Positions 28,701-45,837 of a stretch of DNA of 64,000 bases are shown here, piece after piece (positions within the stretch are counted from its first letter, which is position 1; the number at the start of each line of letters is the position of its first letter). The stretch is from Entrophospora sp. SA101 (taxonomy: Eukaryota > Glomeromycota > Glomeromycetes > Entrophosporales > Entrophosporaceae), in contig CAUDNR010002391.1 of assembly GCA_958430865.1 (NCBI GenBank), positions 1 through 64,000 of the forward strand, read 5' to 3'. A model generated the notes under the pieces. It had not been told where the DNA came from and made no database searches. It was given only the letters and a program-made list of their open reading frames with translations. The position numbers and the translations under genes are program-made.

Positions 28701-31489
28701 TTACTTGCGTTTGGTAAGTAAATATGTAAACCATGTCAATATACACGTACATGCATAGTTAAAATTAAAATTTAATTATATCATATGTATTAATAATAAT
28801 TTTTATTATAATGAACGTTATTTAGTTAAAGCTTGATAAAGAACTTATATCAGTTAAAAATTTCCACAATTATGACCCAATTCATCATGCCACATCACTT
28901 ATACTTGATGGACAAACTCTCGCAAATCTTGAAATTTTTGAAAATAATATGGATCGAAGTGACAAAGGAACTGTTTTTAATTTGTTGAATCATTGTGTCA
29001 CTCCATTTGGTAATTCCTTTATTAAATGATAAGAAAAATCATTAGACTCAAATATACTATAATGTATACATATTATTAATTTACATTATTATTATCATTT
29101 TAATTTAGGTAAGCGTACCTTCAAACAATGGTTGTGTCACCCACTTCTTTCAGTTGATAGAATTAATGAACGCCTTGATACTGTCGAAGAGTTGATGAAA
29201 ACTCCTGTCTTTGGTGATATATTTTATGAAAACTTTTCTAAATTTCCTGATCTTGAACGTTTGATTAGTCGAATCCATGCAAAATCATGTAGAATGAAGG
29301 AATTTGTAATTGTATTAGCATCTTTTGAGAAATTATTGGTTCGTATTATTTCAAAGTAAAAAAATGAAAATTCTATTAAACATATAGTTATATTTGATAA
29401 ATTATATTTATAATTATATAATTTTTTTAAATTTATATAGAAAACCATGGATAGGTTACGCGGCTTTGTTGGTGACTTTAGTTCCATCAAGTTAATTCAG
29501 TTAATGAACAAGTTGCCAGATTTAAAATCAGAACTTTCATACTTTATGGATGCATTCGATCATAAGACTGCTAGTGAAAAAGGTATCATTAAATTATAAC
29601 AATAATACATATATTATGCAATATATTTTATTAATTAGCTCATGGCCCTAAACTAAATTTGTGAAATTATATAGGTGAATTAATACCGGTCAAAGGGATT
29701 GATGCAGAATTTGATAGGATTAATGAAGTATTGAAAAATATTGAAAAACAACTAGATGATCACTTGACAGCCATGAAAAGAAAATTGGGGTAAAATTGGA
29801 CAGGCATTTTAAGTTAAATTCGAATTTATATAATATATATATTTGTTAATAATTCTATTTTTATAAAACGAAAATAGATGTGACAAACTTATTTACAAAA
29901 ATGTTGGCAAAGAAATTTATCAAATTGAGGTACCAAATAATACTCAAGTACCAAACAATTGGCAAAGACTTTCACGTACTCAGGTAAATTATGGTTTTTA
30001 AATTTTGACCAGTTTATATACTATTGATATCGAAATATTTTTTTAATTTATCAAATTCTAGAAAGTATGTCGTTATTGGAATGCAGATCTGAAAAAACTT
30101 ATTAGAAGTTTCCAGGAAACTTTAGAATATAAATCTAATACTCTTAAATCTCTACAAGGAAAATTTTACGAAAAATTTGACACAAATTATCAAGATTGGT
30201 TGCTTTCTGTTAAAATTGTTGCAGAGATTGATTGTTTATTAAGCTTGGTTAAAAGTTCATTGGCATTAGGCGGTAATATATAATTCTTCATTTTTTGATC
30301 CTGAAATTTAATTTTGTGTTATTCTAAATTTTTAAATGATGTTATTATTTTATATAGAACCTAGATGTCGTCCTCGATTTATTAAAGAAGGCTCAAGTGT
30401 ATTAGAATTTGAAGAACTGAGACATCCTTACGTAGTGACAGGGTATGATGTTTATCATTTATTTAGATTTTTTTTAAAAAAAAAAAAAAAAATATTCATG
30501 TATTTATTTATTTATTTATTTATTTTATATTATAATAACAGTGTTGCAAATGATTTCATACCTAATGATACTTATCTTGGAGGTAAAGAACCAAATATAA
30601 TCCTATTGACAGGCCCTAACATGGGTGGTAAATCAACTCTTTTACGTCAGGTTTGTATTTAATTTAGTTTTATTATTAAAAGAGTATTCATTATAATCGA
30701 CTACATTGACTACATCTACTACTGCTACTACTATTATATGTTATATTTTAGAATTGTATAGCTATCATTATGGCACAACTTGGATGTTATGTTCCTGCAA
30801 GAAAATGTTTACTGACACCCTTTGATAGGATTTATACACGTATTGGAGCCAATGATAATATTTTAGCAGGGCAAAGTACGTTTATGGTGGAGTTAAGTGA
30901 AACTTCAAGAATTTTGCATGAAGCCACACCAAGATCTATGGTTATATTGGATGAATTGGGTCGTGGTACTTCTACATTTGATGGATATGCCATTGCCTAT
31001 TCTGTTTTACATTATTTGGCCACATATATTGGCTGTCTGGGATTATTTTCTACTCATTATGGAATGCTAACCAAAGAATTTTCCAATAACCCAAATATTG
31101 CTCTTAAACATATGAGCTGTCATATGAATCAAAAACTTAGGGAAGTTACGTTTCTTTATAAACTTGTTCCTGGTGTATGCCCAAAATCATATGGAATGAA
31201 TGTTGCTAGTATGGCAGGAATTCCAAATCAGATTGTGGAACGTGCAGAAGTTATTGCCAGGAAATTTGAAGAATCTTCAAAGTTTAATAATACGTTGACA
31301 GCCAATGGTTCAGATATACAATTATCCACTCAAAGTGATTTTGTATATTTGTTAAGATCAATTCAAAAAGTTAAACCCGTTATTTCAGACGTTGGTGATA
31401 GGGCAACGGATAATCAAACAGAGCATGAAAAAGAAAAGAGAGAAACTAGAATCCTAAAGGCATTAATTTGCGGCATAAAAAAGTTGTAG
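25773..31489 (+). CDS. MSH6: DNA mismatch repair ATPase MSH6, 24 exons
   Basis: Twenty-four exons with consistent phases give 1207 residues. Exon starts are 25773, 26203, 26375, 26598, 26779, 26917, 27060, 27308, 27412, 27624, 27790, 27970, 28237, 28549, 28691, 28826, 29109, 29441, 29675, 29878, 30062, 30358, 30542 and 30752. An N-terminal PCNA-interacting box QTSLWSFI lies at residues about 19-26, followed by an acidic disordered region typical of MSH6. The mismatch-binding domain contains [14 protein letters not shown] and the F-x-E mismatch wedge GKFYELYE, built across the exon 8/9 junction. The C-terminal ABC ATPase has [13 protein letters not shown] (Walker A), the signature [26 protein letters not shown] (Walker B) and STHYG. 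It pairs with MSH2 as MutS-alpha and repairs base mismatches in the nucleus. Start ATG 25773 was chosen over upstream non-ATG codons. Confidence 0.97.
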
Positions 31490-31709
31490 AATTTTTATGT
31501 AATAATAGATTTAGTATTATTTTTTTTCCCTTTAATATGTAATCCTTTTTTTTAATCTGTAATTATAATTATGTTAGATTTTTGAAATAAAGTTACTAAC
31601 TTGGAGCGATTTTCGCTAAACCCAACTTGATTAATTCGTGTCATTTTATCAAGTGTCACAAAAGGTAATCAATCGATCAAAGAAAATTTTTTTTTCTGAA
31701 ATAAACAAA
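31490..31709. promoter_or_regulatory. MSH6 3' end and PP2C promoter interval
   Basis: Only 220 bp separate the MSH6 stop from the PP2C start. T-rich stretches with AATAAA-like ATGAAATAAAG at about 31579-31592 could serve MSH6 3'-end formation. The second half must hold the PP2C promoter. Confidence 0.4.
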
Positions 31710-33342
31710 ATGTTTAATTCAACACGTATAAGAAGCTTTATAATAAGCACAAATCAAAAAAAAAAATTTTTTCAACAATATCAATCTTTTGCTTCAACCA
31801 CCACAAATAGTAACAACTACAACAGCTTATCAAATTTTAAAAAAAACACATTTAATTATATTATAGGGTCTTTAGTGTTGATTGGACTTGGTGGCTCGAC
31901 GTATTCTTATTATAGAAAAAAAACAGGAGGAAATTTATTGAATGGTGGTGGTAGCGGCGGTACAAACGAGATTGAAAATTCAGATACGCCACGACATAAT
32001 CATAAGATAATAAGAACATTGGAAGAAGCTACATTAAAACTTCGAGAAAATCAAAAATCATTTTTATTTCAACGAAACAATGGTGTACTAAGATATGATA
32101 CTAATCAACTGGCATCAAATGAACCAATTGAAGATACAAAAAGTGAAGTATACTATTCGTCATCATCATCACCATCACCATTAACATTAACATTAACATC
32201 ACCAACAACATCAGCATCAACAAATGACAAAAATAAAAGAAACACAGGAGACCAATTATTTTTTGGAGTTTATGATGGACACGCTGGTTATTCCACATCA
32301 CATTTATTGGCCAAAGCATTGATACCAAAAGTCAAAGAAGAATTGGACAAAGCATATTTAGGAATTGAACAATATTCGAAATTTATTGGACAAAAGGCCA
32401 AATTGACAGAATTAGCGATCCAAAATGCTTTTGTAAATCTGGACAAAGACATTGTATACTATTCGGTTGAACGGTCTTTGAACAACGAGAAATCAACGTC
32501 GATCGATGAAGGAATTTTAACTGCTTTATCGGGATCGTGTTCATTACTAGCCTATATTGACACATTGGAAAAAGATTTGTACGTTGCATGTACGGGAGAT
32601 TCTAGAGCTATCATTGGCCATAAAGATTTAGAAACTGGCAAGTGGGTGGTATTACCATTAAGCGAGGATCAAACTGGTAGAAACAAGAAAGAAATTGAAA
32701 GAATTAATAAAGAGCATCCAGGTGAGGAAGTAATAAGAGCTGGAAGAGTGTTTGGAGGTTTAGAACCAACTAGAGCTTTTGGTGATGCAAAGTAAGTTTT
32801 TTTGGAATAATAATAGTAAAAATATATAGAAACTAATAAATAAATAAATAAATATGTTTTTTTTAAAAAGATATAAATGGGATAAAAATACAAACGGGTT
32901 GATATATTCAAAATATTTTAAAGAAAAACAACATGTACCAGGTGGAGAAAAATTCAAAACACCACCTTATGTCACAGCTAAACCAGAGATAACACATCAC
33001 AAAATTCAATCAAATGACAAATTTTTGGTAATAGCAACTGATGGATTATGGGATAGGTTGAGTAATAATGAAGTTGTGGAATTAGTTGGAATGTTATATG
33101 ATCAGAAAATAAATCCAAAACAAAATAATAACAACAGCAACAACATGAATAACAATATAATTCAAAATGATGTTGAGAAAAATTTTGTTTTGGAAGATGA
33201 AAATGCATCCACTCATTTAATAAGAAATTCACTTGGGGGAGCTGATAATAAAATTTTATGTTCACTTTTATCAATACCACCGCCAATGTCCAGAAGACAT
33301 AGAGATGATATTACCGTGACTGTAATATTTTTTGAAAATTAA
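31710..33342 (+). CDS. mitochondrial PP2C-type phosphatase, Ptc5/PDP-like
   Basis: Exons 31710-32791 and 32871-33342 (79-nt intron, GTAAGT...AAAAG) give 517 residues. The N-terminus is arginine/lysine/serine-rich (MFNSTRIRSF...) and suits a mitochondrial presequence. A transmembrane-like segment follows at about 49-67 (YIIGSLVLIGLGG). PP2C metal-binding motifs are present: SNEPIED at about 136-142, FFGVYDGHAGYS at about 184-195, ACTGDSRAIIG, IATDGLWDRLSNNE and the final RDDITVTVIFF. The layout matches yeast Ptc5, the pyruvate dehydrogenase phosphatase of the intermembrane space/matrix. A low-complexity serine/proline/threonine insert (about 149-175) and an asparagine insert near residue 445 are local expansions. 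The upstream in-frame GTG at 31638 is not a credible start. Confidence 0.93.
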
Positions 33343-33736
33343 TTAATTACTCTTATAAGTTCGGTTGTATATTTGTTTATAATACATATATACATACACC
33401 ACACAACATACAGCAACTAGCAATCCAAAAAAACCACATTTCATATATATAATATATATATATTATATAAAAATAAATAAATACACATAACACACAACAA
33501 TCATCAAAAACCAGCCGTTATACACACACCTTGAAAAAACAGATAATGAAAATAATACAATTTTTTTTTTTATTATTAAAAATAAAACTTCAAAAAAAAA
33601 TGGGAATTTTTTTTGATTTTGATACTATTACAATTTTAATATATAATATAGCTTTAACCACCAATTGTTAGTCATTGTGATTACATGGTTGACACCATAA
33701 TTTATTAATATTACATTGAAATTTCTCAAATATTTA
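33343..33736. other. convergent 3' interval
   Basis: 394 bp lie between the PP2C stop and the stop of the minus-strand HMG/TMPK gene. The interval is AT-rich with an ATATATAATATATATATATT palindrome near 33445 and A/T runs that can serve polyadenylation on both strands. No gene is seen. Confidence 0.5.
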
Positions 33737-35509
33737 TCATTTTAATTGTACTTGAACAGATCTATAGAAATCATCATTGTTGTTATTATTATAATGATTT
33801 TTATCATTGCTATCATCGTTATTATTACCACTATCTCCAACATCACTATTATCATTATTTTTATTGTTAACATTACCACCACTATTATTACTACCACTTA
33901 ACGGAGGTAAAATTGGAGGTGGTGGTGATGATTGTTGTTGTAAATATCCACCAAGATGTCCACTTAGATGATGATGTGGACTAGATAGAACAGGTGATGA
34001 TGACGACGACGAATAATGATGTTGAAATTGTTGCGGAGTTGGTGGTGATAATCGAGGAGAAAGTGATGGTGGTGGGAGATGATGTGTAAGATGATGATGC
34101 GATGGTGGTAATAGTGGTGTTGTAGAAATTGGTGGTAGAATTGATTGTTGATGACGATGATGATGAAGTTGAGCATTGTTGTTATGTGGTGGCGGTGATG
34201 ATATCATCATTGATAAAGTTGGAGTAGTAGGTGGTAAAGGAGGAGGGGAAGAAGAGATGGCGGATGGAGTAGTGGCGATATGCGTATTATTATTGAAGTT
34301 TTGATTATTAATATTGTTGTCGCCATTGTTATTATTTTTTCGACAATGTTCAATTACTTCAATCGACGCTTCAATTATTTGTGCATGTACCAAAGTATTG
34401 GATCGACTTGCATCCAAAATCTATTAAACAAAAAATTACCTATTAAAAATTTATATTAAACCGGCAAGATTTTTTATAAAGGTTACTATTTGTTTTTAAT
34501 ATTACCTTCCAATGCGATTCTGCTAAACGTATAAAAGCATCTTGCATTCTTTTTTTCCAATCTATGATATCATGTCTGTTGTTATTATTATTATTATTAC
34601 TATTACTAATGCCATCTTCAATTGTATTGCTAATTTCCATTCCACCACTATTATTATTATTATTAACATTTCCTCTGCCGATCAAAAAATCATGAGGGTT
34701 TGGTATTGATGGTAATGATGAAAAATCCCTTTCCATGTTTAAATAAAATATTAAATCAGGACTTAATAAATGCACATAACTGCCCTTGCACCAATTTAAA
34801 TCAAGTCCAGCGGCAGTTGATGATGCTATTGCTGAGTACACGTAACGATCAACAATTAACGTTGTGCCTGACAATAAACATTCCCTCATGATAGGCCTAA
34901 CATAAAATAATAAATAAATAAAATATAATGTTGGTTAGTGATAATTTTTATATAAAAGTAATTAATAGATCAGTTAAAAGATTATGATAATAATAATAAA
35001 ACATACATTAGCTCCCACCAATGTGCAGATGTTAATAAATGCATTATTTTTGGAGATGATTGTTGTTGTTGGTGATTATTATTTGTTTGATAGGTTTTAA
35101 TTGCTGATCCTGATGGAGTTGAAATGTCGGGAAATTTCCATAATCTAGCATTTATACCTTCATTTTTTAAAAACTCTAATAGTTTAGTTGATTGTAAAGT
35201 TGTTGTGTAATCGTCACATCCTTCAAGCACAATAAGTGCGCCTCTGTTTGTATTATTGTTGTTGTTGTTGTTGTTGAGTGAAGATGATATAATTGTTGAA
35301 GATGATGATGATGATGATGCTAGTGCAGTTGCTATTGATGATGATTTTATTGCAGTTGTATTATTATTAGATGCAGATGCAGATGTTGAAGTTGAGGAAG
35401 TAGAAGAAATAATTCCTGATTGTTGTTGTCGCTGAATTGGTTTTGTAATTGATTGTAATGATGATTGACTAGTAGTGACATATGATTGTGGCGTAGAATG
35501 TTGAAATTT

Positions 35510-35552
<43 letters not shown>

Positions 35553-37972
35553 AGATGATTTAGCTGTTGCTGTTGCTGTTGCTGCAGATGATTTAGATGA
35601 TTTAGCTGTTGTTGTTGTTGTTGTCGTGGCATATGATGATGCTTCGATGATTGTTGTTGTTTTTGTTGATTATGGCTATAATAATGATTACCTAATAATT
35701 TAGGTTGTTGTATAAATTGATGTAAATTTGTTTGATGTTGTTGTTGATGATGATGTTGTTGTTGATGAAATGTTGATTGAGTGGCGTTAGATGAAGCCTC
35801 TACAGCAAATTTTGCATTGAGCATATCAGAAGGAGACGGTTTATTATTGTTGTTGCGTAGTGCTATAAATGAAAAAAAAAATTATCGGTTAATTAAAAAA
35901 TTTATTAATTAAAAATAAAAATACTCTTTTTTTCTAATCTTACCCAATGCTTTTGAACCACCTGCTATAATAACAACAGATTTTGAAAGATCCTCATCAT
36001 TATTATTAATCCCTCCTCTATTACTACCACGATTGATTTCAATTTTTCTAGAATGATGAATATTGGACTTTTTATTATTGTTGTTATTGTTATCACTGCT
36101 ATTATTGGTGGTGTTAGAAAGTTCAATCACAAAATTGTCCATTTTATCTTGAACACCACTATTACTACTACTATTCATCACCATAAAATTATCATCATTG
36201 TTATTATTATTACCGGAGCCAGTCATCATCATAACATTGGCAGCAACAACAGGAGTACCAGGACCTTTTAACGGCTTTTTAAAAGTAGGACCGACGACTC
36301 TACGTCTAGGTTGATACTTGTAATCAGGCCAAGCCTTCATATGACGTTCCTTTGCCTCCTCAGCTTTACGTTTCCATTCATCTTTCTCTTTATCACTTAG
36401 CCTTCTCCAATGATCGGCGATTATTCGTGATATTTCCGAGTTGTTTATACCAGGATTTTTATTTAATATTAAAGGGTGATGGTGTTGACGATATAAAATG
36501 AAGGAGTTTGGTGGGCGAGGAATATAGGGTTTTTTACGAATTTGTTTTGTAACAAACGTTATATTTGATGATGATGATATACTACCAGTTGGTGATGTTA
36601 CCGTGTCAGTGAAATCGACATCATTGTTGTTATTGGAGCTTGTTGTGTCGATAAAGTTTGAAGAGTTAATCATGGCAGTGTTTTTTGATGATGGCGATGA
36701 TGGTGACGATGATGATGGTGAAATATTGTCAGAAGCAGATAACTTTTCATTCATCATCATAACCATTTCATCATACGGTAATAAAATTTCAGAGCCATTA
36801 TCATCATCCTCATCATGTTCATTTTGTTCTTCCACCACATCATCTTTTTCGCCATCATCATCTTTTTGGTTATTGTTATCATCAATGATCATTTTTGAAG
36901 AATTATTATTATTATCGTTATCATCATTATCGTGATCATAATCCAATTTAGGATCTATTTGATGATGTTGAATTACTAGCGTCCGTCTTTGACGCTTTGC
37001 ATTTATTTTACGCGGACGATGAAGTAAAATTTGTTTTTTCTTCAGATCGGAGGACATCGGCAATTCTTCTTTTACAATTTCGTTATCATAACGATGAAGA
37101 AGATGACTGTTGTCATCAATGTCCATCATGTCATCATCATCGTTATCGTTATCATTATTATAGATACCTTTTCTTTTCTTTTTTGACGATGATAATGGTG
37201 ATGATGGTGATAATAATGGTGGTGATGTTAAAAATGATAAATCATTGTTGTTGTCAATGCTTATTTGATCATCATTACTGATAGTAGTAGCGTTAGTAGT
37301 AGAATTACCATCATTATTATTATTACTATTACTATCATTGTTGTTGTTATTATTATCATGATTAATTAGATTAGAAATACTAGCAGCCGAACTTGCGTTA
37401 TCAATAACTTTTGAGGAGGAGGAAGAGGAAAAGGACAAGTTAATATCATTATTGTCGTTGTTATTATCGTTGTTATTATTGTTGTTGTTGTTGAGATTAA
37501 CATTTTGTTCATTATAAACTTCATTATAATCATCATTTTCAGAATAGACTAATTGATCGATCTCATCTTCGCCGCTACTACCACTGCTGCTTTTTTTTTT
37601 ATTTTTATTTTTTTTGTTGTTTTTTTTGTTATTACTATTTTCAGAACGAGTGCTGCTGCTGCTGATAGAAGCACTATTGGTGGTGGCGGTGGTGGCGGCA
37701 ACATTTATTATAGATTCATCATCAACAACATTATTAGCAACATTGCTTTTTTCTACAACATCATCATTATCATTGTCATCATTATTATTTTCTTCAACAA
37801 CTAAATCTTCTTTTTCGTTCTTTTCTTCTTGTTGTGATAATATTTGTGATTGTGATTTTGGATGAGGATCAGAAGAATTAGAATGCGGTGATGGTGATTT
37901 TTGTGGTGATGAAGAATTTGATGGTGTTGATTCTGTGGTGTTTGAGATTGTGGAAGACGATGTCATTATCAT
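33737..37972 (-). CDS. HMG-box protein joined to a thymidylate-kinase-like pseudoenzyme, 4 exons
   Basis: Exons: 37972-35944, 35862-35007, 34896-34506, 34420-33737. They total 1320 codons with fully consistent phases. Exon 1 carries an S/N/D-rich leader and a MATA-type HMG box (IPRPPNSFILYRQ...NNSEISRIIADHWRRLSD...MKAWPDYKYQPRRR, about residues 478-560). An 81-nt intron (GTAAGA...TTATAG) leads in frame to a Q/H-rich stretch, then a TMPK domain from about residue 880: GALIVLEGCDD, KLLEFLKNEGINARLWKFPD, HLLTSAHWWELM, TTLIVDRYVYS, LNWCKG and ILDASRS. The kinase P-loop G-x(4)-G-K-(S/T) is replaced by GCDDYTTT, the FPxR arginine by FPDI and the NRWE arginine by HWWE. It is therefore probably inactive as a kinase. 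The C-terminal tail (about 1120-1319) is H/P/N-rich. Alternatively a separate TMPK-like gene starts at MLNAKF (35824). Confidence 0.78.
35500..35800. repeat. CAA/CAG-type trinucleotide tracts coding poly-Q
   Basis: On the plus strand TTG/TGT-type triplets run almost without break at about 35510-35555 and again to 35640. On the minus strand they encode poly-Q blocks broken by LNHL and QHQ segments between the HMG box and the TMPK-like domain. Slippage-prone and probably length-variable. Confidence 0.85.
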
Positions 37973-38338: not shown

Positions 38339-40120
38339 GTAATAGTAATAGTAATAATAACCAAAAGAACGAAAATATTTTCATTCATTTATCTCATTCA
38401 TCCATTCATCCTTTCATTCATATAAAGATATTAATAACATTATTATTGTTGTTTGTTATTGTTGTTTGTTGTCGTTGTTAAAGTTGTTATTATTGTTGTT
38501 GCTATTGTTATTATTGTTAAATATTAAGTGTTAAGGGATTGATTGATTATTTATTATTATTATTACTATTATTATTATTATTATTATATCATTATTATAT
38601 CATTATTATATCATTATTATATCATTATTATCTTTCTTTTTATATAAAAATCTTAATTGTTAACATTCTAAAAAAAATTCTAATTTCTAATAATAATTAA
38701 TAATAATAATAATAAAAATGTTAAGAATAAATAAAATGATAAGAATAAACAATAAATAGTAAGATACCTTACTTACCAAGTATTTAAAATATCAATCGAT
38801 TGATCAATCAACCAAGTTTACAGCAATAATAATAATTGATCTTTATGTTGTTACATTGTTTAATTAAGTTGATGTTAGTTCATGTTATTCACGAAATAAA
38901 AATTATATATTAGGAGGAAAATAGAAGATTTAAAGAAATTTTTTTTTTAAAAGAATGTTAATATGATAACGATTGTAATTATTATATAAAGTCCATTCAA
39001 AGTAAAAATAGAAAACAACAATCAATAACCATAATCATAATAGTTGTAAGGAGAGGGAGGAGTTGTTGATGGAAGGTGATGATGATGTGACGAGTAAGTT
39101 GTTTGATTAGTTGGTTGGTGAAGAGGAAAAAGCAGACGGGAGTTGGTAGTAGGGAAGTAATTATTAGTAAAATAAAAATAAGGAGAGAAGTATACATGTA
39201 TATAAAAATAAATATTATTAGATATCTTTAAATTTACCTGTTTCACTTTTCTTTTGTACAGAATTACGTGCGATAAGATCTTATGTGCTGTGAAGAAATG
39301 CTAAGATTAGATCTTTCTACACACAACTTGGAATCTTCAAATCACTCTGATTATATGACAACTATTATTATATATAATAGTAGAATAGAATAAAGAAGTA
39401 TTCTTTTTCGCTGACAAATTAGACAAACAATATGTGTTTATTTATTATTGCTTTTTTAATTTTTTTTTGTTTTTAAATTTAACCAACTTTTAAATCAAAA
39501 AAAAATTTTTGAAATCTTTAAACAAAAGAAATTTTTTTCCTTAAAAAAAAAAAAACCTGTATTTATATGAATATATAAATGTATGTATATATATTATATT
39601 ATATATAAGTAAGAACAATAATAATATTTACAAATTTTGAGTGTTTAGTATAATAAATATTATGTTTTTGATATATATATAATAAAAATAGATATATTAT
39701 GTAGTATTTTAAATAAATATTAATAGAAAATAAATAGAAAATAAAAAAAATAAATAGAAAAAATAAAAACATCATCAAACAACATCCATCAATTGATAAC
39801 TAATATTTATATAAAAAGAAAATATAAGAAAGAATAATGAATGAAAATGAAAAAAAAATCGAGAATAAAAAATTAAAATTATTTATTTATTATTAAAATA
39901 CTTGCTTGTTACACACGGTGCACCTATTTTGTCATTATTTTATTTATTCATTCATCATTATTATTTATTATAATTATTATATTCATTATTATATTATTAT
40001 TATTTATTTTAACTTTCAAACTTTAATAATTGGTAGTTTATTTGGAAGTTTATAATAAATTAGCATATTAGTAATTTTACCCAAATAGTACATTTTAAAT
40101 TAGGATTAAGTTTTTTTCTT
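37973..40120. repeat. microsatellite-rich intergenic region
   Basis: No supported gene. A pure AAT microsatellite runs from about 38284 to 38337. TATCATTAT repeats lie at 38580-38635 and ATTATT runs at 38550-38590. Minus frames at 38997-39246 are compositional and unsupported. The left part should contain the promoter of the minus-strand HMG/TMPK gene. Confidence 0.7.
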
Positions 40121-42250
40121 TCTTTATGTGTATGAATGAATGAATCGCGTTTCAAGCGGTTATTTTCTTTGCAACAAGCAACAGATCTTGAAGTTGGGAG
40201 GGAAAGCGAAATACAGATGGAAAAAATGAGTGAGTGAGCGAGTGAATGAACGAATGAATGAATGAATGAATGAATGATTCAAGAATTGAAATATCAGAAA
40301 AAGACAAGTTTATTTCTTTCTCCTTAATTATTAATTAATTAATTAAAATTGAATGTGCAACAAAAACATAAAAACATAATAATAAAAAACAATCAATTAC
40401 AGGCAGAATTAAGATTAAATTTTTACAAGGAATTTTTAGGTATTTTATTGTTAAATAATAATAACACAAATTATTTATTGTTTCAAATTATATTAATATA
40501 TATACTATTAATAATATATATATTATTAATGGGAAATTTAGAGTCTTCTTTAATTAGAATTTTTTTATCTTGGTTTTTTTCCATTGTAAACAATAGAAGA
40601 ATGAATAATCATAAATCTTAATCATGAATTTAAAGTTGATCCGCACAGTCCCATTGCAATTAATTAATTCTTCTTAAAATATAAAAATAAAACATTCTTA
40701 ATTTTCATTATTATTCTTTTACCAAAAATGTCGAACAAAAAAATTTTAATTTATATAAAAGTTTTTTTTTCATCCTGTTTTGTCTTGTTTTTGATGTCTA
40801 ATTTAATTACTTTGATTTTTTTTATATTTTACTTTTAATTAACAATGCAAATATTATATCCCTAACATATGATGATGATGATTGAATATATCAGTCAGCT
40901 GTTACAATAATATTTTATATATTACTATCAAATACTATCAGTTAAAAATTTTATACATGTAAATATTTACATAATATTTATGCATTATATATATATATAT
41001 ATAACGTATATATATATATATACATATAAGAGATATATATATATTAATATATTATATAAATAAAATTTCCCGCCAGAAAAAAAAAAAATAAAAAAGTTAA
41101 TTGGGAATAAGTTAATAATAATCCATTAAAACAATTCTGGTTTGTTGAAAATAAAGTGTACAATAATAAATGATAATTAAAATAATAAATAAAATTAAAT
41201 GATAATAAATAATAATTATTTTTATCTGTAAATATTTATGTAAAATGAAAACATCGTGTAAAGTACGTGGGGGAAGCGTCATCTCTCGAATTAAATTTTA
41301 CCTCTAAATCATCATATTCGCGTCATGATGACGATATATGTGCTGTATATTTATAATATATATAAGGTCTCCCTCCCATAATAGACTTTGAATAAAACTC
41401 TCTACAAAAATAGCCAAGTAATAAAATCCTAAGAATAATTAATCGACTTGGACTGGCATTTTTACTGGGTCTATTATCCCACCAACAATTATTTTTAGAT
41501 CTATCCGTCCATTACTTTTCATTTACCCAATTACCAACCAACCAAATAACCAATCTGGGTTAATTAACCACCAATTAAACAATTAAAACAATTAACCAAT
41601 CAAATAATCAAATAATTGAACAATCCATAAACCAATAATCAAATTATTCGTATATATTAAATATTTAGTCGTCATAGAAATAGCGATCTTATGGTATTAC
41701 TAATAATAATTGTGTTTGTGTTTTGATTTTAGTTTATTTTTTTTGGCGGGAAATAAGTAATACACAATGATTTATCTATCATTTTTTAAAAACAATGATA
41801 CATTAATTAAATAATTAAATAATCATTTAACTTTACTTACACTAGTTATTAATTTGATTAATTAAAAAAATTTTTTTTTATAGTAAACAATAGAAACAAT
41901 GATAATTTTTTTCCTTGTTTAAGATATTTTGGTTACACGAAGCATATAAGTTCATTCTGCATAATAATTCATCATTCATACATACATTCACCACCTATTG
42001 AGAAAAGAAGAAAATGATGTAACATATACGAGATGAATGGTTAGGAATGGTCAAACAAAAAATTTATTTATTTTATTCATTGTTTTCAATTTATTTCACC
42101 AAATCATTTCACGTCATGTAAAAAATTTTCGTAAAAGTTGCACAAAATTAAGATTTGTGCGTGTAATTTAAAAAAATATGATAATTCATTATCCTTAAAG
42201 TTTTCGTAAACCTAATTGATTTAGATAAGTGATACGCTGGATATTTATTC
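40120..42250. other. low-complexity intergenic DNA
   Basis: GAATGAAT-type tetranucleotide repeats lie at 40240-40275 and ATATAT tracts at 40985-41050. CAATTAACCAATT-like runs occur at 41570-41640. The frame at 40349-40621 is asparagine/isoleucine-rich with no motif. No gene is supported. Confidence 0.5.
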
Positions 42251-42255
42251 TTAGT

Positions 42256-43227
42256 TTGTCCAGGATTATGCTTTTTTTTCTTCCAAATTATGCCCTGGTG
42301 CTTTTTTTTTTCATAATTTTTTGGGCAAATTTATAATAATTCCGACCAAAATTAATATTAAAATTTTTTATTTATTGTTCATCAGAAAAATTAAATTAAA
42401 TTTTTTAATCGAATCTTCTTTTAAAGCTGTGCGTTTATTAGTTATTATATTTTTATAAATTGACAACATCAACACCGGACACAGGAAGTTTCATCAACAG
42501 TTATACTAATCATTTTATTTTTTATTAAAATTTTTAATTTCTGTACTTCAAATACATAACTCATTGGCAAATATTTTCTCGAAGTGATTTGAACCTACAA
42601 TATAACCTCCTAGGAAATAATAAAAATGAAAATAAATGATAATTTACATTAAGATATTCAAATTAATTTTTTTTAATTTTTTTTTGATATGAAATTCTTA
42701 CAATATGAATTAAAAAAAGACTTTAATTTATCTATTTTATCCAGAGAAATATCAGCTTTAGTAAATGCTTCAATAATTGCAATATTGATTTTTTCACAAT
42801 CATTATTAGTGAAAGAAAGAAAAGAGCTTTATAAAGGTTGTGGATTATTTTTATGTTTTTGTTCAGCAGCTTTATGTTTCATTGATTCTATATGGTTATC
42901 AACAATTGATTTTTTTTTCATGATTTATAGTATGGTTACAAAAACAACAATATAATTTCCCAGTTTCAACGTAAAAATGATTATTATAATGACTTTTTTC
43001 CTCAAACGTTCTAATGCAGAAACCACCCACCATTTTTCATTCTATAATTCTATAATCGTAATTGAATTGTGACCTATATTGAATATAATCATCGTCGATC
43101 ACTTACATAAAAGTAAATTATACACGTAGATTATGTGATTATGCCAAAAAATGGTCAATTATGCTCGATTATGCGATTATGCTCAAAATTAAGAAGTGTA
43201 CAGCGAAAGCATAATCCTGGACGCCCT
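42256..43227. mobile_element. possible non-autonomous element with TCCAGGATTATGC inverted ends
   Basis: TCCAGGATTATGCTTT occurs at about 42261-42276 and its inverse (AAAGCATAATCCTGGA, with one mismatch at the inner edge) at about 43206-43221. Inside the right end a string of CATAATCGCATAATCGAGCATAAT-type repeats is seen. The element would be about 970 bp. The inverted repeat is short and no target duplication was confirmed. It contains the hydrophobic frame at 42690-42955. Confidence 0.45.
42690..42955 (+). CDS. small hydrophobic ORF, uncertain
   Basis: An ATG-initiated frame of about 88 residues begins MKFLQYELKKDFNLSILSRE. It then has two hydrophobic segments (ALVNASIIAILIFSQSLLV and GLFLCFCSAALCFIDSIWL) that could be transmembrane helices. 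Codon composition is more balanced than in the surrounding DNA and an A/T-rich upstream region is present. It sits within the putative element at 42256-43227. No family is recognised. It may be a real small membrane protein, an exon, or chance. Confidence 0.35.
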
Positions 43228-43229
43228 AA

Positions 43230-45660
43230 ATAATTTATTATTGTAAAGCAGAAAATATGTTTAATGTCACGTGGTTAATATACCTAATAAGATCGACATC
43301 GAATCTAAATGATCTACTGACTTTTATTTTTTCATCTATAAAAAACAATAATAATAATAAAAATATTATATTCCGTTTTTGTAAAATACATGAAAAAACT
43401 TTAATTTGAAAAAACTTTATTAATTTCCTTTGTTTTTTAAATTAAAAAAAGCTTCTTCAAGTTCCTTTGTTCTTTTAAATATACTTGGGAAAATAATGGG
43501 AAAATCCTATTTTTTTTTTAAGAGGAAAACTTGTTTTTATTCTTGTAATAAACTTTCTTTCATCAAATAAATTTTTAACCAATTAAATAAATGTTTTCAT
43601 TATATTTAGATTACATCAGATATTTATTTAAATCAATAATTACACGCCTTTAAAACCAATCCAAAGCAAACAATTTGAAAATATGTTACGGATTACAATA
43701 AACTGCTCCACACACGATCCTGATTATTTATTTATTATTATTATTATTATTTATTTATTTACAATATCTGATATTGTTAAAATAATAGTAATAACTTGAT
43801 AATAAAATCTCTTGTTTTTACAATCTTTGCTTAGAACCAATCATTCAATAAAATACACGAGGCTCATAATATTTACTGTGGTGTAACTCCAAATATGAAA
43901 AATAAAACCTTAAATCAACCAAAGAAATGAATGAATGAATGAATGAATGAATAATGAATGAAATTAAAAATTTATGATTTGTGATTTTGTTGCTAAATTA
44001 CGACGTATTATTATTATTTTATTATTATTATTATTATTGTGTATATTAATTAATAAATAATGAATGAATCAAAATCAATAAAATAATTAAAAAATAAATT
44101 TTAAAACTTTAAATTAATTAATTAAAATCGTTATTGATTAATTTATTCCAAATGTTGATGGAATACAATAGGTGTCACCTATTTTGTTTCGCTGCCATCT
44201 TTTTGAATTTATTATGAAAATCCATACATAATTCCAGTAAATTTTAAAACAATGATTGATTGATTCATTCATTGAAATTTAGTCGATCCATAGATATGAA
44301 TACCAATTAATTGTATCAGGACTTTCTTTCATTTTTTTGTTGTTGTCGTCGCTGTCAACCATCTTTGGCGTTGTGTTTATAACAATAATAATAGTGGTAG
44401 TAATAATAAAAACAACAATAACAATAGCAACAATAAAAACAATAATAATGGTATTTTTTTGATTTCTTTTATTCTTTCCAATGCTTTTATTATAAACAAC
44501 AACAACATTGTTGGAATGTCAAAGAATGAGTACAATGATATTTGATGTTTAAGAAAGTAGCCTTGTCTATGTGAAAAAATAGAATCATCCATTTACGCCC
44601 AAGAAAGACACAATGCTATTAAGAATAGAAAAAAACAATGCAAGTTGTTGAAATTATAATAATTTATATGGACTTACGATGATGATTACGATTACGATTA
44701 TGATTACGATTACGATTACGATTATGATTAAGCTTAATTTTGTATGATTTATTATATTCTGCTATTTTATATGATATATATATATATTCCCACAATCATT
44801 AATTATTTTGTGCCAAAAAGAAAAAAATCGCTAATGGTTATCTTAAGCATGATTCATACCTCAACCATTGTTTGTTATTTGGTTTTAATGAGTGTCAAGA
44901 ACATTATGATATTTATTTATTTTGTTAGAATTAAAAAATTTGTCTTTAGAAGAGATTAAAGAATATGAGGATAAGCTGCTTTTTTATATTTCACATCATT
45001 TATAAATAATTAAATATTTGCTTCGTATATAACGCATGGACGACAAGGGTCTGTCGAAAAAATTTCGGCAGTTGGGCGTTTATTAGTAAGCTAACTCAAT
45101 GTAATAATGGTATCACAAATCTTCATTTCAAGACCTATACCATGTGCTAGATTATCGAACAGGCAATGATTTTTTTTATATGGTGCACGTAATTATCACA
45201 TGAGTTCAAAGGTTAATAACTTCTTACTGGCGTTTTTTTTTGAGAAAGTAAACCGATAGAATTAAAGCTTAAGACCTAAGCTTCATTTCCATCAATTTAT
45301 TTTTTCTAACCTTGTAAAAAAATTTCGAGTAATTAAGCTTTAAAAAAACACAAATTAAAATTATATAATAAATTTCGTTGTCTAATCTTTTTCTATAAAA
45401 GGAAACAATGCACTCGAAATCTCATAATGATTTTATCGAGTATGAATTTGACTGTACATACATATTAAAATTCGTCTGTTAATTGAATTCATGACAATAT
45501 TTCTTTTTGCAAAAGATTTTTAATTATAATTTTAGTTATATTAATTGAATTAAAGAGTTTTTTTTCTTTTATATTAATGTAATACTTTCTCACATGTAAA
45601 ACCTTTTCTCTTCCTTTAATGTTATTGAAGAAATAAAAACATGCATATGAATTATGAATT
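43230..45660. other. intergenic with simple repeats
   Basis: AT-rich DNA with GAATGAAT repeats (43925-43950), TTATTATT runs (44010-44040) and a GATTAC/GATTAT hexamer array at about 44681-44730. Frames at 44377-44592 (poly-leucine) and 44744-44959 are compositional. No gene is supported. Confidence 0.5.
44681..44730. repeat. GATTAC/GATTAT hexanucleotide array
   Basis: About eight tandem hexamers (GATTACGATTACGATTATGA and so on) form a short pure minisatellite in non-coding DNA. Confidence 0.85.
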
Positions 45661-45668
45661 GTATATAT

Positions 45669-45837
45669 AGTTCAATCTCTATAACGAACCACTCTATAAC
45701 AAACATCAAGTAAAATCTCTTGTCCCTGATTCATTTTTTTATAATTAATTTCTCTCTTTATAATGAACATCTTAGTAGACAAAAGCAGAAAAATTACAAG
45801 TAGGGACGTAAGGTTCGTTACAGAGAGAGTGAAATGT
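45669..45837. mobile_element. second, diverged copy of the pogo-like MITE
   Basis: The left end contains TTCAATCTCTATAACGAACC and the right end (reverse complement) CATTTCACTCTCTCTGTAAC followed by GAACC. The interior matches the copy at 14390-14552 in order: TCTTGTCCC, ATAATTAATTTCTCTCT, AAAAGCAGA, ATTACA and TAGGGAC. TA lies next to both ends. It is more diverged than the 14.4-kb copy, so it is older. Confidence 0.85.

Follow-up and report, generated by a model that had tools for sequence, protein, structure and literature searches.

The stretch of Entrophospora sp. SA101 DNA analysed here (contig CAUDNR010002391.1, positions 1 to 64,000; all 64,000 nucleotides are called the window below) carries a minus-strand gene whose predicted product joins a high-mobility-group (HMG) box to a degenerate thymidylate kinase (TMPK)-like domain. 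We consider it likely that this protein is a sequence-specific single-HMG-box transcription regulator with a non-catalytic, TMPK-derived regulatory module, born by fusion. Splicing of the four exons (Table 1) gave 3,960 nt with a single open frame of 1,319 amino acids plus a stop, and all three introns (81, 110 and 85 nt) were of the GT...AG type, the first running from GTAAGA to TTATAG. Read through unspliced, the exon-1 frame meets a stop at 35911, within intron 1. The first-pass annotation of this locus had drawn the same four exons in matching phases and had claimed no stop between the first acceptor and the TMPK domain; the spliced translation agreed with both, the named donors and acceptors were present, and the nearest stop in the exon-2 frame (35882) lies upstream of the acceptor.

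A comparison with other Glomeromycotina, which had been suggested along with the gene model, recovered fused models in 11 species: Acaulospora morrowiae, Racocetra persica, Cetraspora pellucida, Ambispora leptoticha, Ambispora gerdemannii, Paraglomus brasilianum, Rhizophagus irregularis (two proteins), Funneliformis geosporum, F. mosseae, F. caledonium and Entrophospora sp. SA101. We take these species to span the main orders of the Glomeromycotina, and the fusion probably predates the divergence of the living orders. The idea that it is recent or mis-assembled in this genome alone was rejected on the same distribution. When the TMPK part of the full-length protein was the query, all seven proteins found came from arbuscular mycorrhizal fungi (AMF). 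A search with the Rhizophagus protein P0006 returned 57 proteins; 12 contained both domains, and all 12 belonged to Glomeromycotina. Five fused orthologues had both domains over the cut-off in one protein. None of the non-AMF matches listed in the P0006 search contained a TMPK domain, and the conserved N-terminal motif was absent from all 39 of them. Only the 7,980 candidates with the most shared words were scored, so the search does not prove that groups other than Glomeromycotina lack the fusion. Of 21 aligned rows, 17 carried the N-terminal motif, SAASISNLINHD or SVTSISNLINHD, and the other four (P0008, P0009, P0128 and P0135) come from models with a later start. The C-terminal motif appeared in 9 of the 21, and many of the remaining rows are partial models. 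Two Ambispora proteins, P0005 and P0007, run past the TMPK-like domain into a common extra segment (VIFKNLEE...) that was not noticed in other orthologues; it may be a genuine additional domain, or the models may have run into the gene that follows.

The gene had been assumed to come from Rhizophagus; it instead matches the Entrophospora sp. SA101 protein P0135, to which 139 residues in and near the HMG box are 100% identical; along 152 residues of the TMPK part there are four gap positions and no mismatch. Judging by these identities, P0135 is the public model of this gene, and its first junction is the same (KAL-ALRNNNN). In the orthologues, exon 1 closes with a VIIxGGSKEL motif and exon 2 opens with a KPSPxEAxKAKL-like motif, and P-[IT]-M-[RK] is kept at the intron-2 site in the five orthologues aligned. 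Unspliced models and open reading frames (ORFs) stop at matching intron sites, where the last residues before the site are SKELNKI in Gigaspora P0136 and P0138, HWWELM in P0066 and QWK in six others. Because the architecture is conserved across Glomeromycotina, the intron positions recur in other genera and a public model has the same first junction, the sequences support a single protein joining the HMG box to the TMPK fold, as first proposed.

The exon-1 match to the Pfam HMG_box family covered profile positions 1-69 of 69 (E 4.6e-22; 78.7 bits, cut-off 25.4). This is the only HMG stretch in the protein, and the only Pfam families matching it were HMG_box, HMG_box_2, CHDNT and HMG_WDHD1. Its RPPNSF motif aligns with RPMNAF of SRY, which puts Asn at the DNA-contacting position. 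An excerpt of PMC3088718 links a single box and Asn at this position to the sequence-specific HMG class; on both features, the predicted protein has the sequence character of the sequence-specific single-HMG-box transcription factors. Because the box is 85-95% identical to fused orthologues of other species in eight of nine tested, versus 45-46% to six other HMG loci tested in the same genome, it does not look like an offshoot of a recent HMG expansion. Identity to the two ascomycete HMG proteins compared was 54%, and the closest non-AMF scored matches, among those listed, were ascomycete HMG proteins; two carry the name 'repressor of filamentous growth 1'. The initial description of the protein as mating-type-like found no support beyond the HMG fold itself. 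Large HMG families are described for AMF in the part of PMC4771724 available. Across the genome assembly, scoring of 150 out of 156 candidates yielded 118 HMG-box matches with E <= 0.001. Many came in pairs of equal score, which suggests assembly redundancy or co-existing nuclear types besides family expansion.

The Pfam Thymidylate_kin profile matched exon 2 (E 1.6e-4, under the cut-off) and exon 3 (E 4.7e-8, over it), with intron 2 between. We made structure predictions, as the first-pass annotation had advised, for orthologous sequence. The first, of P0001 from a 7-row alignment, was good for the HMG box and poor for the TMPK part (mean predicted local distance difference test score, pLDDT, 40.1); with a deeper alignment the mean rose to 69.5, and the domain scored mostly 84-98 except at residues 241-260. 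The TMPK fold was retained in the orthologue model, and on the profile match and fold together the domain is homologous to thymidylate kinase (PF02223). In a tree, the branch of these pseudo domains meets the true TMPKs at a tentative position only, on long branches (support 81/78).

We compared catalytic positions, in human numbering, between 14 pseudo domains and 17 true TMPKs (16 of 120 listed database proteins, plus the human enzyme). Pseudo-domain sequences were available from 25 sources (the window, P0001-P0012, P0016, P0022, P0024, P0066 and P0128-P0135), of which 11 were omitted as fragments or near-copies; P0129 and P0130 (Funneliformis) lack the first strand and P-loop, and P0011 and P0012 are incomplete in their later parts. 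The P-loop Lys was present in 17/17 true TMPKs and 0/14 pseudo domains (Thr in 12, Ser in one, Arg in one; the two Funneliformis rows are weak there), and the P-loop Gly was gone in 13. Equivalents of R45 and F72 were absent from all 14, in which R76 was replaced by Trp and N75 by His; R97 was kept in nine and lost in five. In TMPKs, F72 and R76 hold the thymine, and R45 and R97 the phosphate. Variable sequence took up most of the LID. Of the 13 rows filled at R143, two (Ambispora) had Arg there; of the 11 filled at R150, one (the window) did. The LID rows align poorly, the sequence being variable and of low complexity. Kept in all 14 were F42, P43, G50, H69, L70, L71, W77, E78, D96, Y98 and W116. 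Between-species identity of the pseudo domain was as high as that of the live enzyme in 9 of 10 pairs. The P-loop and lid are important in Plasmodium TMK, according to an extract of PMC6366710. Both the enzyme's P-loop signature and its contacts to deoxythymidine monophosphate (dTMP; R45, F72 and R76) are thus missing, and by these losses of catalytic residues the kinase part is no working nucleotide kinase; the original description is corrected on this point.

Public normal TMPKs with an intact P-loop were found for Funneliformis, Rhizophagus, Glomus cerebriforme, Diversispora, Acaulospora and Entrophospora, so the fused protein is not the sole member of the family in those six genera. Four TMPK matches in the assembly had an in-frame TGA (L009-L012, on contigs C624, C293, C792 and C1611). 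Reading TGA as Trp opens long frames in L009, L010 and L012, not L011, and their G+C content is 32-34% versus 27.8% for the window; we presume that these contigs probably belong to Mollicutes-related endobacteria co-assembled with the fungus.

Table 1. Features of the fused gene and their positions in the window.
Feature	Position	Strand	Basis
Whole gene: HMG box, Q/H-rich linker and pseudo-thymidylate-kinase domain; 1,319 aa, 4 exons	33737..37972	-	spliced translation, orthologues
Exon 1, 2,029 nt, phase-1 end: low-complexity N-terminus, SAASISNLINHD, KKKRK basic stretch, HMG box, VVIIAGGSKAL	35944..37972	-	
Conserved N-terminal motif SAASISNLINHD; identical in Paraglomus, SVTSISNLINHD in Ambispora	37355..37390	-	alignment
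HMG box (Pfam PF00505), single, Asn in RPPNSF motif	36317..36523	-	profile match, alignment
Intron 1, 81 nt; equivalent intron inferred from Gigaspora models ending there	35863..35943	-	
Exon 2: KPSP motif, Q/H-rich linker, start of TMPK-like domain	35007..35862	-	
Poly-Q/H-rich linker, limits approximate (by eye)	35483..35772	-	
Pseudo-thymidylate-kinase domain, split by introns 2 and 3, limits approximate	34334..35245	-	profile, alignment; orthologue fold
Degenerate P-loop GCDDYTTT (TMPK: GxDxxGK[ST])	35198..35221	-	residue alignment
HWWE motif; Trp at the human TMPK Arg76 position	35012..35023	-	residue alignment
Intron 2, 110 nt; the homologous ORF P0066, unspliced, runs off here	34897..35006	-	
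Exon 3: middle of TMPK-like domain (VDRY strand), N-rich stretch replacing the LID	34506..34896	-	
Intron 3, 85 nt; homologous ORFs/models P0010, P0012, P0016, P0022, P0024 and P0132 run off at the same point	34421..34505	-	
Exon 4: end of TMPK-like domain and C-terminal low-complexity tail	33737..34420	-	
Conserved C-terminal motif NDDFYRSVQVQL; RDGFSRPVHVQL in Rhizophagus	33743..33778	-	alignment

A second apparent copy of the TMPK part lies on contig C1528 (64621). Its flank follows the window as far as 35526, inside the Q repeat, where it switches to the reversed window from 45709; C1528 62000-71402 (L016) corresponds to window 32107-35526 and 39769-45709, and by sequence this copy looks like a partial inverted assembly join. 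The other copy on that contig shows 100% identity with the window along 9,001 bases. Both were treated as assembly redundancy. Next to the gene, two plus-strand ORFs resemble, by eye, the C-terminus of a MutS homologue (MSH; 30062-31489) and a PP2C-type phosphatase (31635-33342).

For the protein as a transcription regulator, we envisage that the HMG box would bind DNA and that the pseudo-TMPK would bind a partner protein, a second copy of itself, a real TMPK or a changed small ligand, and so would set the activity of the DNA-bound complex. Within this reading a protein-protein module is moderately favoured because neither the ATP site nor the canonical dTMP site is intact, and small-molecule sensing is the less probable form; a changed ligand stays possible because new invariant residues occupy old contact positions. 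The first-pass annotation had offered nucleotide sensing or scaffolding. Ordinary TMPK-type sensing is unlikely with the P-loop Lys, R45, F72 and R76 lost from all 14 domains; a changed ligand or a partner protein is possible.

One version of this regulator, which we rate as quite possible and a little short of even, is a ligand-free scaffold for dimerisation or docking through the putative dimer-forming helices of the TMPK fold. TMPKs are homodimers, and the domain has kept the fold and lost the active site. A second, more tentative version by analogy is a sensor of deoxynucleoside triphosphate (dNTP) or thymidylate status, in which altered binding of a thymine nucleotide would let the HMG box control DNA-synthesis genes in a QutR-like manner. 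The TMPK origin, the constraint on the domain and its new invariant residues such as His75 and Trp76 are consistent with it. There are precedents in QutR-type inactive-enzyme repressors (PMC10512348, in excerpt) and in the yeast HMG proteins Ixr1 and Rox1, which the available portion of PMC3088718 links to ribonucleotide reductase (RNR) genes and dNTP pools, with a reported synthetic sickness between ixr1 and the TMPK mutant cdc8-2. Against it stand the loss of the thymine contacts (F72 and R76) and of the phosphate contacts (R45, and R97 in 5/14); the yeast link is moreover an analogy.

It is very improbable that an HMG-box gene and a TMPK-like gene merely adjoin here and were wrongly joined. 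Separate partial public models exist (HMG part only in P0136-P0138, TMPK part only in P0008-P0012), and an in-frame ATG at 35824 follows the intron-1 acceptor. However, fused models occur in 11 species, Gigaspora P0136 and P0138 end by intron read-through at the corresponding place, and P0009 begins within the exon-1 part and reads across the junction. The Rhizophagus row (SPTEAIKSKL) lacks the Met of 35824, and the Met of P0008 lies nearby in another column. We rejected the two-gene model on the conserved junction motifs and intron positions. There is even less to be said for an active moonlighting kinase brought to chromatin by the HMG box for local supply of deoxythymidine diphosphate: the orthologue model has the TMPK fold and Asp96 and Tyr98 are kept in 14/14, yet the P-loop and dTMP-contact residues are lost as described, few of the filled rows have Arg opposite R143 or R150, and six of these genera have stand-alone TMPKs; on the residues we rejected it. 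Equally remote is a decaying relic: the P-loop region is variable and missing in Funneliformis models, which would suit it, but identity between species matches that of the live enzyme in 9/10 pairs and pseudo-specific residues are invariant.

Several observations weigh against a non-catalytic transcription regulator made by ancient fusion. Nuclear action would follow only from the HMG box and basic stretches. The kept Asp96, Tyr98, Phe42 and Pro43 could allow some residual nucleotide binding, and 60 of the 68 rows in the structure alignment were true TMPKs, which favours that fold. No true TMPK of Ambispora, Paraglomus or Gigasporaceae was among the 120 matches listed, and none of the canonical fungal type was found in this genome's assembly with the PF02223, P0019, P0026 and P0028 queries; Entrophospora sp. 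SA101 proteins of that type are public, and the latter most likely reflects an incomplete assembly or overlooked short exons. Six of the 18 Glomeromycotina proteins in the P0006 search lacked one or both Pfam matches (TMPK only in P0003, P0132 and P0133; HMG only in P0136 and P0137; neither in P0138), which we read as incomplete models. Because one annotation style is common to most '_t:CDS' models, these are not fully independent. Past the first junction, P0135 loses PIMR through another intron-2 acceptor and ends prematurely.

The predicted regulator shares with the eukaryotic thymidylate kinases (human DTYMK, yeast Cdc8; PF02223) its predicted fold and the core FP, HLL, W-E, D-Y and W116, and differs from them in the lost P-loop Lys, R45, F72 and R76, the mostly replaced LID, and its place behind an HMG box and a long linker, with a separate normal enzyme public for six of the genera. 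With single-HMG-box fungal factors (Rfg1/Rox1-like proteins and the AMF HMG family) it has in common one box and Asn in RPxNSF/RPxNAF; unlike the Rfg1/Rox1-like factors it has a TMPK domain, absent from the non-AMF matches listed, and unlike the six other HMG loci tested in this genome its box is set apart by its low identity to them. Like QutR, GaaX and TanX, it would be a metabolic-enzyme copy serving gene regulation; these are hypothesised to be catalytically inactive and resemble the part of AROM that includes the shikimate-kinase domain, according to excerpted text of PMC10512348. They are, however, separate repressors paired with zinc-cluster activators, derive from other enzymes and have no HMG box. 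The enzyme derivation and residue loss are observed here, and a regulatory role is proposed. Saccharomyces cerevisiae Ixr1 is likewise a large HMG-box protein with poly-Q stretches and is tied to dNTP pools, whereas it has two HMG boxes and no kinase domain is described in the portion of PMC3088718 available. The QutR-type and Ixr1/Rox1 precedents make an enzyme-derived regulator a reasonable idea; neither shows the role of this protein.

No paper on an HMG-TMPK fusion was found by title or abstract among the open-licence literature searched. In public records the fused proteins appear as 'HMG box domain-containing protein' or 'hypothetical protein', or under a model number alone, and the partial ones are called 'thymidylate kinase-domain-containing protein'. 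To our knowledge, no TMPK-derived transcriptional sensor has been described. That a Glomeromycotina-wide factor uses a retired thymidylate kinase to read thymidine-nucleotide or DNA-synthesis status and set gene expression is a doubtful proposition at present; if true, it would tie transcription in these obligate symbionts of plants to their growth or to nuclear replication. AMF genetics is difficult and validated transcription regulators are few; a 2016 survey, in the part seen of PMC4771724, names one, GintSTE. The architecture, with its unusually conserved HMG box, may serve as a shared-derived marker of the lineage, and its enzyme-derived module can be tested on its own. It offers a defined example of a metabolic enzyme copy that has probably become a regulatory domain, and may connect nucleotide metabolism with the control of genes in AMF.
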